Source: an uncultured Muribaculaceae bacterium
GTDB taxonomy: Bacteria; Bacteroidota; Bacteroidia; Bacteroidales; Muribaculaceae
Direction of reading: 5' to 3'
NCBI GenBank assembly: GCA_947177435.1
Contig: CAMWUM010000013.1
Location: forward strand, 1 to 15,376
Length of the DNA: 15,376 nt
This document shows, in pieces, positions 1 to 10,494 of this stretch. Within the stretch, counting starts at the first letter, position 1. Each line of letters begins with the position of its first letter. The notes beneath the pieces are model-generated. The model was not told the DNA's origin. It saw only the letters and a list, made by a program, of their open reading frames with translations, and ran no database searches. A program made the translations under genes and the position numbers.

Positions 1-1407
1 TCGAACAGCGTATTCTTTACCACTGGCGACCGCCGCATCGCTCCCACTGAAGACGATAAGTACATCCTCGTGCCCATCAGCGAAAAGGAGAATGTATACA
101 AATCGGTCAGTGAGCTTGACAACGGTAAAAAGCCCGTCGAAGTCTACGTAGAGCGTATTTCCGCCAAGGTTACCGTAACCCTTGGTAAGGATTGGGCCAC
201 CAGCTATAAGGTTTCTACCGAAGGCGAAGGAAGCAGCACCATCACTATTTTCAATAGCGCCGATGCTACGACCAAAACCATCAAAGTAAAGCCCGTAATC
301 CTCGGCGCAGACCTTAACGTACTGACCAACAAGGCTTCGCTCATCAAAAACATAACCTACTCTCCTTTTGAGAGTGGCTATGAGTACGGAAAAGCCCCTG
401 AGGGCCGCCCCAGCTACGAAAAATTCCTTTGGAACGATCCCCTCAACATGCGCTCTTACTGGGCTGAAACTCCTGTGCTGGTCGGAATGACATACCGCAG
501 CTTCAACAACGTCAAGGGCAAAAATATGGAGAAAGGCGAATTCAAGCCCTTCACCGCCTACATCAACCCCAACACTCAGGACTACACCCCTGGTAATGAG
601 GACAACTCGCTCAACACCAAGCTGATGGTAATCGCCCAGCTGAGAGGCGTAGAAGTTGATGCGAATGGCAATGAAATTGGTACTGACACGATCCTTGACC
701 TCGTAAGGTTTGGTGGTGAATATATGCTTAAAGATCAGGCCCTTGCCCACGCAGCAAATGTCATCAACGTGGCTGTGCGCAACATTGACTGGGAGAGCAA
801 GGAAAACTTGAGTGCCGCAGAAAAAATCATCCTCTCTACATACGTTAACAACTCATTTGTTCCCGGTCTCAGCGGAACGCTGCTCGAAATCAAGGCTAAC
901 AAGAAAAGTGATTACGATGTCTACACCGCTGTAATCAACTTTAAGGATGCTGAGAACTATGGCTACACACTCCAGAAAGATACCGTACTCAACGACTACG
1001 AAGACGAGGCTGTGCAGGCTATCATCAAGGATAAGAATCAGCTCGATGCTACCTTCGGTAAGGCTAAGTCCGTAATCGACGAAGTCATCAAAACGACTCT
1101 GGACGATCTCAACGAGAAAACAAACATCATCTATTGGGCTGAAGGCAAGACCTACTTCTACACCACCATCAAGCAGCAGGGCTTCATCGGCCTCACCGGC
1201 GCTGACGACAACTACCTCAATGGCGTAGTGCGCAACCACATCTACAACATTACCCTCGAGTCGTTCTACGGCCTCGGCACTCCCGTCATCGATCCGGGCA
1301 AACCCATCGATCCCGAGCGTCCCAAGGAAGAGAAGCCCAGCTACATCACGGCTAAGATCAACATCCTCCCCTGGCGCGTAGTAACCAACAGCGCAACGAT
1401 CCACTAA
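1..1407 (+). CDS. mfa1: Mfa1-family fimbria major subunit (5' truncated by window)
   Basis: This is the major structural subunit (fimbrillin) of a type V pilus; in this family the subunits are exported as lipoproteins, proteolytically matured and polymerised by donor-strand exchange outside the outer membrane. The frame is open from base 1, so the gene starts upstream; the GTG at 70 is an internal valine, not a start. 468 residues are visible. Near visible residue 49 is the fimbrillin motif VERISAKVTV, ending the N-terminal domain. The C-terminal domain carries GKTYFYTTI, then VVRNHIYNITL, YGLGTPVIDPGKPI and a final strand NILPWRVV, all typical of the Mfa1/FimA C-terminal domain. The signal peptide, lipobox and maturation site lie outside the window. 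It is followed by a probable attenuating terminator and then the anchor gene, the usual order for such loci. Family call is firm; mfa1 versus fimA naming is less certain. Confidence 0.93.
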   Translation, partial: SNSVFFTTGDRRIAPTEDDKYILVPISEKENVYKSVSELDNGKKPVEVYVERISAKVTVTLGKDWATSYKVSTEGEGSSTITIFNSADATTKTIKVKPVILGADLNVLTNKASLIKNITYSPFESGYEYGKAPEGRPSYEKFLWNDPLNMRSYWAETPVLVGMTYRSFNNVKGKNMEKGEFKPFTAYINPNTQDYTPGNEDNSLNTKLMVIAQLRGVEVDANGNEIGTDTILDLVRFGGEYMLKDQALAHAANVINVAVRNIDWESKENLSAAEKIILSTYVNNSFVPGLSGTLLEIKANKKSDYDVYTAVINFKDAENYGYTLQKDTVLNDYEDEAVQAIIKDKNQLDATFGKAKSVIDEVIKTTLDDLNEKTNIIYWAEGKTYFYTTIKQQGFIGLTGADDNYLNGVVRNHIYNITLESFYGLGTPVIDPGKPIDPERPKEEKPSYITAKINILPWRVVTNSATIH

Positions 1408-1623: not shown

Positions 1624-2706
1624 ATGAAGCACTTCTTTTCTAACATACTCGCTCGCATAATCCCGGCGCTGGCCGCAATGGCGGCCCTGTCGGCCTGCGA
1701 CTCGCTGATCTACGACTACGAGGGCGAAGACTGCGACCCCGTGCATATCATACGCTTCGAGTACGATATGAACATGAAGTTCGCCGACGCCTTCCCGGCC
1801 GAAGTGCCGTCTGTAGACCTCTACGTCTTTGACAAGGCTGGCCATCTGGTCACCAGCGTCTCGCGCCACGTGAGCCGCGAGGAGGCCAAGGACTTCAGCA
1901 TCGAGCTCCGAGGCCTGGCCCCCGGCCACTACGACCTGCTGGCCTGGTGCGGTGTCAAGGACAGCGAGCACTTCCTGGTCAACCACGCCGGCGTCATCGA
2001 TCCCGCATACGAGCACCACACCTGCCGCATCAACAGCCTCGACGAGGGCGACGCCAACGGCCACATCCGCAAGGACGTGGGCCGACTCTTCCACGGCCGC
2101 CTCGATGACGTGGACATGACCGCCGACGAAGGCACCTACGTGCACACCGTCAGCCTCACCAAGGACACCAACGTGATCCGCGTGGTGCTCCAGCACCTCT
2201 CGGGCAAGCCGATGGACAAGGCCGACTACGACATCTTCATCACCGACCACAACGCTCTCTACGCCCACGACAACAGCCTGCTCCCCCACAAGGACATCAC
2301 CTACCACCCCTGGATCGTGAAGAGCGGCGAGGCGGCATTCGGCCCAGACTACGAGCCTATTCTCGACGACGAGCAGTCGCGAGCCCAAACCTCAGTCAGC
2401 GCCGTGGTGGCCGAGCTCACCGTGGGCCGCCTGATGGCCGACCGCAAGAAAGACGCGCTGCTCGTGGTCAACAACGCCAACGACGGCAGCAACATCGTTA
2501 CCCTCCCGCTCATCCAGTACCTGCTGATGGTCAAGGGCCACTACTACGGCGCCGACGGCCACACCCCCATGAGCGACCAGGAATACCTCGACCGCGAGGA
2601 CGACTACCCCATGACCTTCTTCCTCGACGAGCAAGACCACTGGCTCAAAACTGTAATCTACATCAACATCTGGCGCGTGGTCCTCAACGAATCCACCCTC
2701 CATTAA
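1624..2706 (+). CDS. mfa2: Mfa2/FimB-family fimbrial anchor lipoprotein
   Basis: A 360-residue protein, a normal length for the Mfa2/FimB anchor, which caps the base of the pilus, fixes it to the outer membrane and limits its length. It begins with a basic and hydrophobic signal peptide ending in the lipobox LSAC, with lipidated Cys25. Just after it comes the family signature IYDYEGEDC, then IIRFEYDMNMKFADAF and SVDLYVFDKAGHLV, the canonical first strands of this family. The C-terminus, INIWRVVLNESTLH, closely resembles the tail of the major subunit upstream. The ATG at 1624 is chosen because it gives the complete lipoprotein signal. It lies 217 nt after the shaft gene behind a probable attenuator, and 9 nt before the next gene, so it is likely co-transcribed with the downstream accessory genes. 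Confidence 0.93.
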   Translation: MKHFFSNILARIIPALAAMAALSACDSLIYDYEGEDCDPVHIIRFEYDMNMKFADAFPAEVPSVDLYVFDKAGHLVTSVSRHVSREEAKDFSIELRGLAPGHYDLLAWCGVKDSEHFLVNHAGVIDPAYEHHTCRINSLDEGDANGHIRKDVGRLFHGRLDDVDMTADEGTYVHTVSLTKDTNVIRVVLQHLSGKPMDKADYDIFITDHNALYAHDNSLLPHKDITYHPWIVKSGEAAFGPDYEPILDDEQSRAQTSVSAVVAELTVGRLMADRKKDALLVVNNANDGSNIVTLPLIQYLLMVKGHYYGADGHTPMSDQEYLDREDDYPMTFFLDEQDHWLKTVIYINIWRVVLNESTLH

Positions 2707-2715
2707 CCCCTGATA

Positions 2716-5700
2716 ATGACATTTTCCTTACTGAGACATATAACCCACCGACTGACAAGCCTTGCGGCTGTCGTTGCCATCATGGCGACGGCCCTGTGGT
2801 CGTGCAGCGACTTTGAGCCCTCGTCGGGCATCGGAGCCGACGGCGACGGCACGGTCGCATTCCGCGTGGTCACGCCCAAGTATGCAGGCAGCAACCGAGG
2901 GTCGAGGGCCACCTGGGGCGAAAAGTACGAGCAGGTGGGCGGCACCGAGTTTGAGACCGCGCTGCTCGACGGCCAGGTGCAGGTGATCATCACTGACAAC
3001 GACTGCAGCCAGCGGTACGCCATCACCGACCTCTACTGCAAGAAGGTGTATGACGAGACCCTCTTCCTGGTCTACGAATACGTCGGCCGCATCGAGGAGA
3101 AGGATCTCGACGCCATGCGCAAGGTCACCAACGGCAAATTCCACATCATCGCCAACGCCGGCGCAGACGCCGACCTTAAAGACGAGCTTGCATTCAAGCG
3201 CAGCGGCCAGGCCAGCGATTTTGAGTCCATCCCCATGTGGGGCGTCAAGACAGTAGACTTCTCAAATCTTACGCCCAACAACGCCCTCAACATCGGCGAC
3301 GTCACCCTGCTGCGCTCGATGGCCAAGGTGGTGATTGACCTTGACACCGATGCCACTGACAACTACATTACAAAAATCACCGACGTAACCATCTCCACCA
3401 CCAACGGCGAGGGATACGTCCTGCCCGCCGGCTGGAGAGAAATTGAAAACACCAATACGCTCGACCGCCACGCAGCCCGCGTGCCCGAGCAGACGCCTAC
3501 CGGAGCGAGGAACTTCAAGATGGACGATAAGAGCCACGTCGAGTTCTACCTGCCCGAAATCATCAACGGCGAGGGTAACGACGAGGTCACGCTCACCATC
3601 AATTACGAAACCGTCCTCGGCAATATGACCGGCAAGCTCTACTTCCGCCGCTACGCCGATGGCAACCCGGGAGACACCCCCCTCGACGTGCTGCGCAACT
3701 ACCTGTACCACTTCTATGTCAAGAAGCCCAACCACGAAGAGGTCACCGCCATTCTCGACGTTATCCCCTACAGCTCGGTCGTGCTCGACCCCGACTTCGG
3801 CCTGGAGCGCGACCCCATCAACGGCTGGATTTGCTTCCGCAATCCCCAGGGCTTCCTGATGTGCTACTACGACGAAATCAACAAGGTATTCTACGACTTT
3901 GACCGCCAGCGCATTACCTACAATGCGCGCGAGGACAAGCCCTCGTGGCTCGAGGTAATCGACGCCAAAGGCGACTTCAAATGGTACTTCGATGTCGAGA
4001 CCGGCAACATGTACGACAATAATGACAATGAGATGATCGGTCTTGACCGACACGAAGTCACCGGATGGCTTGTGCGCTACCTTACCGATGACGAAGGAAA
4101 TATCATAATCGATGAAGATGAAAAACCCATAGTCGACTACTACGTGGCTCCGCTGGCCAACAAGGTATACGACCGCAACCTCGCCGAGGTTGAGCTCGAG
4201 AGCCGCGAGGGCACCGGCAGTTACAAGCTGCTGCGCGACGGCGACGGCAACATCATCATCAAGTTCGACCCCCTTACCGGCGAAGTTTTGGACAACGACG
4301 GAAAAAAACCCACTTTTATCAGTTACGAAAATGGTGATAAAAACCGCATAATCATCAACCCCGGAGAATGGTACTGCCTCTACGACCGCACTGAGGGCAA
4401 ATTCTATAACTCCGCCGGTGCACCGATCAAGAACCCGTTTACCAATCCCAGCTGGCAGCAGTATCTGTACACCAACGGCTCGCTCATCTGCTATTACGAC
4501 CAGGAGACTGGCAAGTTCTACGACGTCGACCTCGATGAAATCACTTTCGAAATCCTCAAAACAAAGCCTTGGTTCAAGGTCGTGGACTCGCAGGACAATT
4601 TCTGCTGGTACCTCGACTACCAGACCGGAGCCATGTACGACGAGCAGGGCAGGGGCATGAACGTAGAGCGCGACCGCACCACCGGAAACGTCATCCGCCG
4701 TGGCTCGCAAGGCCACATTGCCTACTATGTCGACCCCGTGTCGCTGCTGGTGTATGACTCCGGCCAGAACCTCGTTCGTCTCGAGCACCGCAATGAACTG
4801 ACCAATGCTCTGAAAGTGCTCCACTTCAAGGGTGAAAACGGCAACACAACCACTGCTACGTATTTCTTCGACGCCGCCGCCGGCATCCTATACGGCAGCA
4901 AGCCGTCAAGCACTCACGAGACCGGTTTTACCGTCGACAGGGACAACGTAATCTACGACCGCCTGCACAAAGAGCAGGCGCAGTTTGACCGCGACGACAA
5001 GGGCCGCGTAATTATCCCCGACAACAACGGCAAACTCTTCCGCTATTACGACATAGACGAATCAAAGTTCTACACCCCGCGCGAGGTGCCGGTTTCCAAC
5101 TCGTTCTCGACCCAGGTGACCCCATATGACGACATCAAGAACGAAGCCGGCGTGTTCATCTGCTTCTACAACCAGTTCGAAGACAAGTTCTACGACGGTT
5201 ACATGCGCGAAATCACCCACGAGCAGCACCCCACCCAGCCCTGGTTCAAGGTCTGCGACCATAACGGTAACTTCAAGTGGTATGTCGACTTCCTGACCTT
5301 CAAGCTCTACAACGCTGACTGCTCAGAAATGACATCTCCCGCCCTTACACGCAGCTACAATGGCAGTAATATAAGAATCACCTCCGGCAAGCGTGACACA
5401 AAGACAGGACGCGTTGAGTTCATCCATTACCGCGGCCCGAGCGGCGTGGTAGGAACTTGGAGCTACTGGCTCGACCCCCTCTCGCTGGTAATGTACGACG
5501 GCTCGATGCGCGAAATCATCCTGCCCCGCAAGGAAAATAAAACCAATGCTTTGCAACGGTTCAAATACAATGGCACAGTACTGTATGATTTCGATGTCTT
5601 GACCTGCCAGTTCTACAAGGGCAACACAGCCGTGGAGTTAAAAAACACCTGCACAGATATTATCACTAACAAAAAAACCATTAATACCAATTCGACTACA

Positions 5701-6246
5701 TATAAAACGATCACAGGTTTTAACGATCTGTCGCCCGCAAATTATACTCTCCGCATTTCTGGTTATGTTGGTGATTCTGGGGACCTTGGCACTAACCAAT
5801 TCCGTTTACAGAGCAGTGCCACTTCTGGTATTGTAACCACTAAATCTGGTGGCACCCTCAAATCGGTTACTTTCGCACTTAAAAGCGGATGGGGAGCGAC
5901 CTCAACTGGCAAACTCGCTGTTTATGAAAAGAATAGTGCATTCACTGCTGTGTCTGATATGAACAGTCTTACTGCGACAAAAACAATTCAAAGGAATAAT
6001 CAAACACTTATAACCTATACGGCGACAGGCAACAATAAATTCGTCGGAGTCCGTTCGGCTGATGGCAACCACTATCCTGACTATATCAAAATAGAGTGGG
6101 AAGTCAATGATGCGCAATACTATGTATTGTCATTCTACGAATCGGATGGCACCACAACATCTATCAATTATAGGCCCTATAACCAAACTTGGCCCAATAC
6201 TAATAAGGATTTACTTAGTACGAATCCCTTCGTAAGACAGCAATGA
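2716..6246 (+). CDS. Large fimbrial accessory lipoprotein with 14 aromatic YD-type repeats
   Basis: A 1176-residue secreted lipoprotein with no specific family that I can name. The signal peptide ends at LWSC (Cys30), followed by acidic residues that suit surface export in Bacteroidetes. Residues ~45-350 resemble a fimbrillin N-terminal domain: SRAT at 63-66 (possible Arg-protease site), SIPMWGV, and LLRSMAKVVIDL. Residues ~379-975 are 14 repeat units in three super-repeats, with cores such as CYYDQETGKFYD and NFKWYVDFLTFKLYN. Residues ~976-1176 form a different module (QFRLQSS, SGIVTTKSGGTLKSVTF, KFVGVRSADGN, DYIKIEWE) resembling a beta-sandwich domain common in secreted Bacteroidetes proteins. 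Position in the operon suggests an accessory or tip adhesin, with the repeats as stalk or binding surface; this is inference. It starts 9 nt after the anchor stop and overlaps the next gene by 4 nt. Confidence 0.85.
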   Translation: MTFSLLRHITHRLTSLAAVVAIMATALWSCSDFEPSSGIGADGDGTVAFRVVTPKYAGSNRGSRATWGEKYEQVGGTEFETALLDGQVQVIITDNDCSQRYAITDLYCKKVYDETLFLVYEYVGRIEEKDLDAMRKVTNGKFHIIANAGADADLKDELAFKRSGQASDFESIPMWGVKTVDFSNLTPNNALNIGDVTLLRSMAKVVIDLDTDATDNYITKITDVTISTTNGEGYVLPAGWREIENTNTLDRHAARVPEQTPTGARNFKMDDKSHVEFYLPEIINGEGNDEVTLTINYETVLGNMTGKLYFRRYADGNPGDTPLDVLRNYLYHFYVKKPNHEEVTAILDVIPYSSVVLDPDFGLERDPINGWICFRNPQGFLMCYYDEINKVFYDFDRQRITYNAREDKPSWLEVIDAKGDFKWYFDVETGNMYDNNDNEMIGLDRHEVTGWLVRYLTDDEGNIIIDEDEKPIVDYYVAPLANKVYDRNLAEVELESREGTGSYKLLRDGDGNIIIKFDPLTGEVLDNDGKKPTFISYENGDKNRIIINPGEWYCLYDRTEGKFYNSAGAPIKNPFTNPSWQQYLYTNGSLICYYDQETGKFYDVDLDEITFEILKTKPWFKVVDSQDNFCWYLDYQTGAMYDEQGRGMNVERDRTTGNVIRRGSQGHIAYYVDPVSLLVYDSGQNLVRLEHRNELTNALKVLHFKGENGNTTTATYFFDAAAGILYGSKPSSTHETGFTVDRDNVIYDRLHKEQAQFDRDDKGRVIIPDNNGKLFRYYDIDESKFYTPREVPVSNSFSTQVTPYDDIKNEAGVFICFYNQFEDKFYDGYMREITHEQHPTQPWFKVCDHNGNFKWYVDFLTFKLYNADCSEMTSPALTRSYNGSNIRITSGKRDTKTGRVEFIHYRGPSGVVGTWSYWLDPLSLVMYDGSMREIILPRKENKTNALQRFKYNGTVLYDFDVLTCQFYKGNTAVELKNTCTDIITNKKTINTNSTTYKTITGFNDLSPANYTLRISGYVGDSGDLGTNQFRLQSSATSGIVTTKSGGTLKSVTFALKSGWGATSTGKLAVYEKNSAFTAVSDMNSLTATKTIQRNNQTLITYTATGNNKFVGVRSADGNHYPDYIKIEWEVNDAQYYVLSFYESDGTTTSINYRPYNQTWPNTNKDLLSTNPFVRQQ
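3850..5640 (+). repeat. Coding repeat array: 14 YD-type units in three super-repeats
   Basis: Encodes residues ~379-975 of the large accessory lipoprotein. Super-repeats begin near residues 379, 588 and 812 (periods ~209 and ~224) and hold 5, 5 and 4 units of about 35-55 residues. Each unit has a (W/Y)-Y/F-x-D core, a short turn often containing TG, and a closing (F/M/V)-Y-D/N. Equivalent positions match across super-repeats: first units end in (R/E)IT(Y/F/H), and the linkers before second units read PSWLEVIDAKGD, PWFKVVDSQDN and PWFKVCDHNGN. Super-repeats two and three are more alike than the first (they also share a TNAL linker). The third lacks its fifth unit, where the C-terminal module begins. 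Confidence 0.85.
5641..6246 (+). other. AT-richer C-terminal module of the accessory lipoprotein
   Basis: Base composition changes within the gene: the 60 bases at 5641-5700 are about 30% GC and those at 5701-5760 about 40%, against about 62% at 3901-3960 in the repeat region. The change coincides with the end of the YD repeats and the start of a different protein module, suggesting a separately acquired or exchanged domain. The frame stays open to the stop at 6246. Confidence 0.6.
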
Positions 6247-9537: not shown

Positions 9538-9764
9538 GAGCCGCGGAGCGGCGAGATTGTCCGAAACCCTGCATGAGCGAGCGCAGCGAGCGAGTGTAGG
9601 GCCAGCCATCCCCGCAAGTCCGAGTGCCGGAGGCACGATGTTGTGGTAAATTATTGGCTACCACGACATCGTGCCTCCGGCACTCAGTGGTTGGTTGGGA
9701 CTCTGTCCCCAGGCTCCGCTTCGCTCCGCCTGGGGTTCTGGACAACCACGCCGCTCCGCGGCTC
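9538..9764. repeat. Nested inverted-repeat element with cloverleaf-like fold
   Basis: Outer arms 9538-9562 and 9740-9764 are 25 nt each and complementary at 23 positions. Between them lie three further hairpins: 9567-9573 with 9595-9601 (7 bp including one G-T pair), 9622-9647 with 9660-9685 (26 bp, one G-T pair), and 9707-9714 with 9728-9735 (8 bp, perfect). The whole could form a four-armed structure in RNA or single-stranded DNA. No believable coding region fills it. It resembles non-autonomous palindromic (REP/MITE-like) intergenic elements; copies elsewhere in the genome cannot be seen from here. Confidence 0.7.
9622..9685. repeat. 26-bp near-perfect palindrome
   Basis: Arms at 9622-9647 and 9660-9685 pair at all 26 positions with one G-T wobble, around a 12-nt AT-rich loop (aaattattggct). 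Each arm also contains a smaller palindrome (gtgcc-gga-ggcac on the left). This is the central and strongest hairpin of the larger nested element. Confidence 0.85.
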
Positions 9765-9776
9765 CGCCAACAAACG

Positions 9777-9837
9777 CCTGTGCTCCTGCCACAAACCACC
9801 AGCCCTCCTGTTCCTCCTGTGCTCCTGTCTCAAACCA
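9777..9837 (+). repeat. Short direct repeat in the toxin upstream region
   Basis: Two copies of a 22-nt sequence (9777-9798 and 9816-9837) share cctgtgctcctg and caaacca, with two differences between those blocks. They lie between the palindromic element and the toxin promoter, in a C/T-rich stretch with no other recognisable signal. Possible operator or chance duplication. Confidence 0.4.
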
Positions 9838-9865
9838 TTTCTCTCCGCTCTTTTCCACACCAGCC

Positions 9866-9897
9866 ATTGTGCATTTCGCGGAAAATTTGTAACTTTG
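9866..9897 (+). promoter_or_regulatory. Bacteroidetes-type promoter of the zeta toxin cassette
   Basis: The -7 element TAACTTTG at 9890-9897 matches TAnnTTTG exactly. A -33 element ATTG (9866-9869, one mismatch to TTTG) lies 20 nt upstream. The toxin start codon is 24 nt downstream of the -7 box. Bases 9867-9898 are identical to 10806-10837 in front of argS. Confidence 0.8.
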
Positions 9898-9908
9898 CCA
9901 ACAGACTA

Positions 9909-9929
9909 ATGCGGCAAAGCCATGGATAA
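9909..9929 (+). other. Six-codon leader ORF overlapping the toxin start
   Basis: An ATG at 9909 opens a six-codon frame (MRQSHG) whose stop at 9927-9929 lies 3 bases beyond the toxin ATG (9922-9924). It sits in the short leader downstream of the promoter. It could limit or couple toxin translation, but there is no ribosome-binding evidence and it may be chance. The leader of argS has a similar tiny frame (10844-10858, MPIY). Confidence 0.3.
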
Positions 9930-10494
9930 ACCTACTCTGTACATAATTTCAGGATGCAACGGCGCGGGCAAGACCACAGCCTCTTACACCGTGCTCCCTG
10001 ACTTATTGCAGTGCCGGGAGTTTGTCAATGCCGACGAGATAGCCAAAGGCCTCTCACCTTTCAATCCCGAATCAATGGCCATCGAAGCGGGCAAACTTAT
10101 GTTACGCCGCATAGACATGCTCCTGTCACAATGCAAGACATTTGCTATCGAGACAACCTTGGCCACACGCAGCTACGCCAGGCTCGTGGAGCGCGCCCAC
10201 CAATCGGGGTATCAGGTGGTGCTTTTGTTTTTTTGGCTATCGTCGCCTGAGATGGCCATCGAGCGTGTGGCAAAACGCGTACGCGAAGGCGGCCATAATA
10301 TCCCTACCGAAACCATCATACGCCGATATTGGCTTGGCCTGCAGAATTTTTTCACCATATTCTCGCCAATAGTCGACAGCTGGATGTTTTTCGACAATGT
10401 AGATAAGACCACACTGGTAGCGAATAAAAGACGGGTTGTTGATGCAAAATTATTCAATCATATTAAATCGATATGTCTGAACAAGAAGAAATAG
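9922..10494 (+). CDS. Zeta toxin family P-loop kinase
   Basis: A 190-residue cytoplasmic protein of the zeta-toxin/PezT-like family. Characterised members phosphorylate UDP-N-acetylglucosamine and so block cell-wall synthesis; other family members may act on other substrates. The Walker A motif is GCNGAGKTT (11-19). Next come FVNADEIAKGLSPFNPES (34-51), the usual substrate-side N/D segment, and AIETTLATRSY (75-85). The lid motif is KRVREGGHNIP (118-128), followed by IIRRY (132-136), with the Arg, GGH and IP residues all present, so the fold looks intact. The ATG at 9922 is 24 nt behind a clear promoter and puts the P-loop at the expected position. The gene overlaps the next by 22 nt. There is no epsilon-type antitoxin gene upstream, so the toxin comes first here. 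Confidence 0.88.
   Translation: MDKPTLYIISGCNGAGKTTASYTVLPDLLQCREFVNADEIAKGLSPFNPESMAIEAGKLMLRRIDMLLSQCKTFAIETTLATRSYARLVERAHQSGYQVVLLFFWLSSPEMAIERVAKRVREGGHNIPTETIIRRYWLGLQNFFTIFSPIVDSWMFFDNVDKTTLVANKRRVVDAKLFNHIKSICLNKKK

Follow-up and report, generated by a model that had tools for sequence, protein, structure and literature searches.

An array of aromatic repeat units at the C-terminus of a putative Mfa3-type pilin in an uncultured Muribaculaceae bacterium

The stretch of DNA studied here (the window) covers positions 1 to 15,376 of contig CAMWUM010000013.1 (assembly GCA_947177435.1) of an uncultured Muribaculaceae bacterium, a gut organism. It carries genes for a type V pilus, and the gene in third position, P0001, encodes a protein of 1176 residues (2716..6246, + strand; open reading frame list and translation), probably a tip-type pilin in the Mfa3 position, which bears a C-terminal repeat array. 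The array holds 14 recognisable aromatic units of about 40 residues (residues 370-976) in blocks of 5 + 5 + 4. This layout had been proposed in an original prediction made from the sequence alone, and it was recovered by regular expression, unit profile, block alignments and all-against-all comparison of the units.

P0001 begins with a signal peptide and a lipobox cysteine at residue 30 (LWSC; 2716..2805, + strand). The structural model has a helix over residues 3-30, and C30 is invariant in all nine sequences of alignment A1 and all 15 of A3. The motif S63-R64-A65 (2902..2910, + strand), also invariant in A1 (9 of 9), is a probable arginine cleavage site, and the sequence suggests that the pilin is probably matured by a cut after Arg64; in Mfa1, Mfa3 and Mfa4 a cut at Arg has been reported (PMC5789003). 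The putative two-domain type V pilin body (residues 31-362; 2806..3801, + strand) ends with V-x-x-x-PY-x-x-V-x-L-x-P-D-F-G. It is homologous to the bodies of other third-position proteins and would adopt an Mfa3-type fold. In P0001 and its unit-bearing relatives the C-terminal extension begins past the PY..V.L.P.FG of the last pilin strand; Mfa3 aligned up to residue 341. A lipoprotein of a pilus operon, with a fimbrillin-type N-terminal part and a separate C-terminal module, is what had been predicted, and these features support it.

The operon starts, on the same strand, with an Mfa1-like major fimbrillin (1..1407; Fimbrillin_C, 3.8e-13), whose 5' end is cut by the contig start. This shaft protein is the single Fimbrillin_C gene of its own genome, a 2.0-Mb draft that is 79% complete. 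It is followed by an Mfa2-type anchor pilin (1624..2706, + strand; Pfam Mfa2, 5.4e-51), and a P0001-like gene lies directly 3' of the anchor gene in the window and in all eight long loci of relatives. The stop codon of P0001 overlaps by 4 bases with P0002 (6243..9473, + strand; Pfam and open reading frame list), a lipoprotein of 1076 residues with a DUF4906 domain. A P0002 relative adjoins the P0001-like gene in 8/8 long loci and is thus a conserved downstream partner. Beyond the pilus operon, a small open reading frame (9643-9909) without a credible family precedes a gene for a 190-residue protein matching Zeta_toxin/AAA_33 kinases (9922-10494; 3.5e-11).

The blocks of the array were delimited by profile, block alignment and shuffles. 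Block 1 holds units 1-5 (residues 370-579, starting at 370, 410, 450, 501 and 544; 3823..4452, + strand), block 2 units 6-10 (residues 580-804, starting at 580, 619, 657, 697 and 764; 4453..5127, + strand) and block 3 units 11-14 (residues 805-976, starting at 805, 843, 885 and 944; 5128..5643, + strand). The starts first proposed for the three super-repeats, near residues 379, 588 and 812, fall inside the first unit of each block, and 370, 580 and 805 (window 3823, 4453 and 5128) are better limits.

A regular expression for the unit core matched nine times in the 816-residue extension, once out of register (at 584), where 2000 shuffles gave 0.21 matches on average and 3 at most; it had no match in the 360-residue N-terminal part. 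Alignment of the blocks with one another gave scores of 237, 140 and 206, the maxima of 300 shuffles each being 62, 54 and 60. These shuffle tests exclude chance as the source of the array. The unit profile detected 14 units between residues 370 and 972, with unit 9 at 1 bit only; being built from P0001's own units, it gives number and register rather than independent proof. When 15 units with hand-set limits were compared all against all by profile, units five apart scored 43 on average (n = 15 pairs) versus 17 for the others (n = 90), and no other period from 2 to 8 stood out. Between blocks, units of equal rank are thus far more alike than other pairs, so that a five-unit block seems, from the sequence, to have been duplicated twice. 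At the DNA level the remaining copies are short and diverged (families of 16-32 nucleotides, 63-88% identity), and a tandem-repeat finder with periods up to 500 listed nothing within the gene, which indicates that the duplications are old. A first self-BLASTP of P0001 also gave no off-diagonal match.

The unit consensus reads W-x4-[DN]-x2-G-x4-Y-Y-D-x5-[FY]-Y-D-x-D-x3-I. With weighting over 139 aligned units, of which nine proteins of the P series gave 107 and ten relatives 32 (effective number 46), the signature comprises an aromatic residue at position 2 (77%, consensus W), D/N at 7 (81%), G at 10 (79%), aromatics at 15 and 16 (81% and 76%), D/N at 17 (96%), an aromatic at 24 (87%), D/N at 25 (77%) and a hydrophobic residue at 31 (98%). 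F, Y and W make up 14.8% of the first 620 array residues versus 9.7% of residues 61-360. AlphaFold2 predicted one beta meander per unit, the fourth strand being only one or two residues long, and no confident overall tertiary shape; in a two-unit relative the second unit was predicted with fair confidence on its own. The repeating beta-hairpins expected at the outset are therefore present in the predicted structures. Structure searches with the models of P0001 and of the relative L004 returned mainly pilin parts and barely probed the array.

Searches of known families named nothing in the array. With P0001 as query, neither Pfam nor NCBIfam gave a match at E up to 1, nor did any profile search assign the region to a known domain. 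Among the unit-bearing proteins NCBIfam was searched with P0001 only, whereas 26 natural proteins were scanned against Pfam (P0001, P0010-P0018, L003, L004, L005, L006, L007, L011, L014, L022, L033, L034, L053, L054, L057, L059, L062 and L065); the repeat reached a cut-off in none of them, the best sub-threshold match inside an array being InlJ_IG in P0017 (21.9 bits, cut-off 26). In the PDB no credible relative was found by sequence, whether the query was P0001, the inserted module described below, a typed consensus or the profile of the extension or of A4: one profile search returned only tyrosine kinases (E 0.02 and above), and the typed consensus listed, among others, the WW protein Prp40 (E 0.37) and RBM10 (E 2.7). 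Among the open-licence papers listed on type V pili and their lectins or adhesins, on Mfa3 tips and C-terminal repeats and on fimbrillins in Muribaculaceae, none describes the repeat in its title or abstract opening, and none was listed on WW domains in Bacteroidales fimbriae.

Among about 5.8 billion proteins searched, P0001 and eight others were found to carry the array. A further search, by profile, scored only the 8000 candidates with the most words in common and yielded one more, the fragment P0018. The original prediction had allowed for size variation between strains, which is hardly seen: seven of the eight long-array relatives keep the full plan, with 13 or 14 units detected (14 each, plus a probable 15th, in P0015-P0017), P0014 being the exception, and numbers vary among distant relatives. 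In overlapping genome samples the block profile matched 17 of 397 genomes of the family, 5 of 393 of the order (two already counted in the family, the other three at E 4e-4 to 8e-4) and 1 of 395 of the phylum, which is the own genome. In all 15 family-sample loci that were fetched, the own among them, the array follows a pilin body of the same type; a weak match, G017, lies outside these 15.

The tails of these pilins differ from one relative to another. Two units were counted in L003, L004 (a tail of 88 residues), L033, L054, L055 and L059, three in L006, L057, L062 and L063, four in L005, L011, L022, L034, L053 and L065, five in L014 and P0020, about six in L007, and 14-15 in the P0001 group except P0014 and in P0015-P0017. 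Many of the counts from 2 to 6 were set by eye, as the profile detects the units incompletely, and hardly at all in L005, L053 and L065. L014 (a tail of 212 residues) and its near copy P0020 have a single five-unit block with the same NPF motif at the end; a search with the L014 tail found, among 408 candidates, only L014 and one 95% identical protein. Other proteins have no tail and end a few residues past the pilin body (L008, the first copy of L018, L030, L032, L041), and the tails of still others hold no recognisable units, although some of them give one or two matches at 1-3 bits (L010, the first copy of L014, L015, L016, L017, the second copy of L018, L019-L021, L036, L045). By eye, the tails of L016 (9983-11608) and L021 (8801-10465) are made of another repeat, of the type GYxxDxxGxxxDxxG, and the tail of about 500 residues in L036 looks like stacked immunoglobulin-like domains. 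In L014, L015 and L018 the operon has two successive pairs of P0001-like and P0002-like genes, whose P0001-like tails differ. The L014 and L015 pilus genes lie on metagenome-assembled genome records titled Lachnoclostridium/Clostridiales (JAMPAP010000001.1 and JAMPBP010000001.1); the title of the former looks wrong, since a frame of equal length with the same tail occurs in a genome of the window's family (G247, L052).

Block 3 had been described as a super-repeat of four, and four of its units are indeed recognisable; a fifth is probably the C-terminal stretch of residues 1132-1176 (6109..6243, + strand), a degenerate unit ending in NPFVRQQ which was located by alignment to the C-termini of P0015-P0017. 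In these three proteins the last stretch follows unit 14 directly and ends, as do units 5 and 10, with a PF motif. The best profile match of the putative unit 15 within P0001 is unit 5, with weak scores (17-18), and model confidence is low there. Block 3 thus probably has five units, which would make the overall plan 3 x 5. In P0001 and in P0010-P0013, which are four of its five nearest relatives, a beta-rich module of about 140 residues is inserted between units 14 and 15 (about residues 990-1130; 5683..6105, + strand); this module is absent from P0015-P0017 and has a middling CBM86-like structural match. The fifth nearest relative, P0014 (916 residues), stops after unit 13 with a short unrelated end and has neither the last units nor the module. 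A stretch of about 130 residues resembling the module occurs near the start of, or inside, large and probably secreted proteins of the genus and family (L002, L012, L013, L040, L048, L050); in the two that were scanned, L012 and L048, Pfam named nothing there.

Pilin bodies and tails do not group in the same way. P0001 and P0015 are 20% identical over the pilin core (66-340) and 53, 54 and 49% over the three blocks; P0015 and L014 are 44% identical over the core and 33% over the first block. By its core P0015 groups with L014, by its tail with P0001. A possible to likely reading of these identities is that the long array, common to two groups with very different pilin bodies, was moved or that the body was replaced; the alternative is fast evolution of the P0001 body. 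The junction (341-369) is well conserved in every pair (62% for P0001 and L014, for example) and sliding identity climbs at residues 300-350, for L014 too, which places the change point only between about 300 and 380. A tree test of the cores with 28 rows did not reject holding the two long-array groups together (p 0.41); a second one, with four pilins added (L068, L069, L071, L072) and four earlier rows removed, rejected this grouping (p 0.0007). The second tree joins P0001 to L068 and L069 with a support of 88, these pilins being from another genus and another family. Its new rows were unevenly trimmed, and the program warned that long branches meet, those of the P0001 group and of L068, and that the composition of L069 is odd. 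As the two tests disagree, the exchange is kept provisional. In the order sample, proteins 24-31% identical to the P0001 core occur in 6/393 genomes besides the own.

We consider it probable that P0001 serves a type V pilus as its Mfa3-type tip pilin, or as a tip-adaptor pilin, and that the repeats of its C-terminal extension make up a multivalent tail that binds a ligand. Its pilin body would be exported as a lipoprotein and undergo arginine cleavage and strand exchange, in the way reported for the export, lipidation, cleavage and assembly of known type V pili (PMC5789003, PMC12632263). It would then be built into the pilus near its distal end, beside P0002, the putative tip protein, and displayed at the surface. 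As the tail begins just past the last pilin strand, it would hang outside the polymer. Each unit would form a small, aromatic-rich antiparallel beta meander, set out 5 + 5 + 5, and an aromatic surface repeated up to 15 times could give avidity for a repetitive ligand, candidates being a glycan or a proline-rich or mucin-like chain; binding of glycans by the array is possible. The first interpretation of the locus is partly supported.

How the units pack is a separate question. Each five-unit block might close as a five-bladed beta-propeller, so that the tail would be three propellers in a row, which we would liken to the tachylectin-like or PQQ-like ones. The five-unit phase of the similarity and the single block with the same NPF end in L014 and P0020 speak for such rings, as does the recurrence of aromatic and D/N residues, highest at lags 40 and 10, which corresponds to about four strands per unit (observed/expected 1.4-2.0, no shuffle control). 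The low-probability Foldseek matches of the whole model (0.06-0.08) include 7zgp_A, 9n6v_LH and 5nzu_D, which we take to be propeller proteins. However, the relatives with 2, 3, 4 and about 6 units cannot close five-bladed rings, the lone second unit of a two-unit tail is already predicted with fair confidence, and the fourth strand is only one or two residues long. A propeller is therefore a serious candidate that we nevertheless find somewhat doubtful.

A different function for the tail would be that of a spacer, the array being a rod without binding of its own, which mainly keeps the tip complex (P0002 or the inserted module) at a distance from the shaft. Repeat number is a classical way of setting length, and it ranges from 2 to about 15 between relatives; in the P0001 group the inserted module, with its CBM86-like match, would then be the binding part. 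However, P0015-P0017 have a long array yet lack this module, array length is equal in seven of eight close relatives, and the aromatic content of the array is high, so that we regard a mere spacer as unlikely.

We give a little less weight still to a string of WW- or OCRE-like beads, in which each unit would be a three-stranded aromatic sheet and a receptor for proline-rich peptides, for example in mucins, collagens or a proline-rich loop of the shaft protein. OCRE is reported to bind polyproline motifs via exposed tyrosines (PMC5127646). The typed two-unit consensus of the relatives passes the Pfam models WW (34.4 bits, cut-off 26.9) and OCRE (27.9, cut-off 24.7), the P0001-type unit consensus passes OCRE only (25.4; WW 12.5), and sub-threshold matches occur among the members of A4 (OCRE in 7/10, WW in 3/10). 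However, scoring a consensus inflates the result, and that of the relatives also gave sub-threshold matches to 20 other families; no scanned natural protein came to a cut-off (best OCRE 19.4 bits in L014, best WW 16.1 in L003), P0001 itself has no match to either, and a period of eight residues, as OCRE should show, is not significant (at lag 8, 195 of 2000 shuffles were as high). The Mfa1-like protein of the window has 6 prolines within 20 residues, but 4-5 in 20 are also found in those of L015, L016, L017 and L021, whose tails lack recognisable units. The comparison of Mfa1-like proteins thus gave no specific support to the shaft loop as a ligand. An RHS/YD-type beta shell formed by the whole array is very improbable, as the YD motif is a superficial likeness, no RHS or YD model in Pfam or NCBIfam matches P0001 at E up to 1, and the units, with their W and G signature, are about 40 residues long, RHS repeats being about half that length.

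The locus may illustrate a wider principle, which we put forward tentatively and rate below even chances. Lineage-specific tip pilins would use their C-terminus as a socket for exchangeable cassettes. Here a new repeat would have grown from a few units to a five-unit block, been triplicated to 15 units and met a different body, either by moving whole or by replacement of the body, giving a multivalent receptor of no named family at the end of the pilus. The ligands of type V pili in gut Bacteroidales are described as still little known (PMC12632263), and the locus draws attention to the Mfa3-type pilin encoded next to the anchor, on its 3' side, as a single position at which the outward part varies strongly among species. 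The repeat unit is defined and small enough to express and assay, for example as the two-unit tail of L004, and if the array was truly exchanged between bodies, the junction is a natural boundary for domain-exchange work.

Compared with known repeats, the units have Y-D hairpins in common with RHS/YD and choline-binding repeats, a likeness that had been pointed out, but P0001 matches no RHS/YD, choline-binding or cell-wall-binding model, and the typed consensus gives Choline_bind_3 only 15.3 bits (cut-off 27). With OCRE (PF17780) and WW (PF00397) they share the aromatic antiparallel beta meander, the YYD-x-x-TG-x-x-Y hairpin and the W at the unit start; unlike these, the natural units stay below both cut-offs and repeat every 40 residues or so, with no significant octamer period. 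Mfa3 itself, the tip of the Mfa1 fimbria of Porphyromonas gingivalis (PDB 5nf4), has a C-terminal part of 105 residues, which was removed before crystallisation, whereas P0001 has 814 residues in its place. Also close are the type V tip pilins reported with C-terminal ligand-binding or lectin domains (PMC12632263), which like P0001 join such a domain to a pilin body; in P0001, unlike in these, that domain consists of repeats which match no Pfam or NCBIfam family. C-terminal ligand-binding domains were thus already known in tip pilins, and it is only the repeat that is new.
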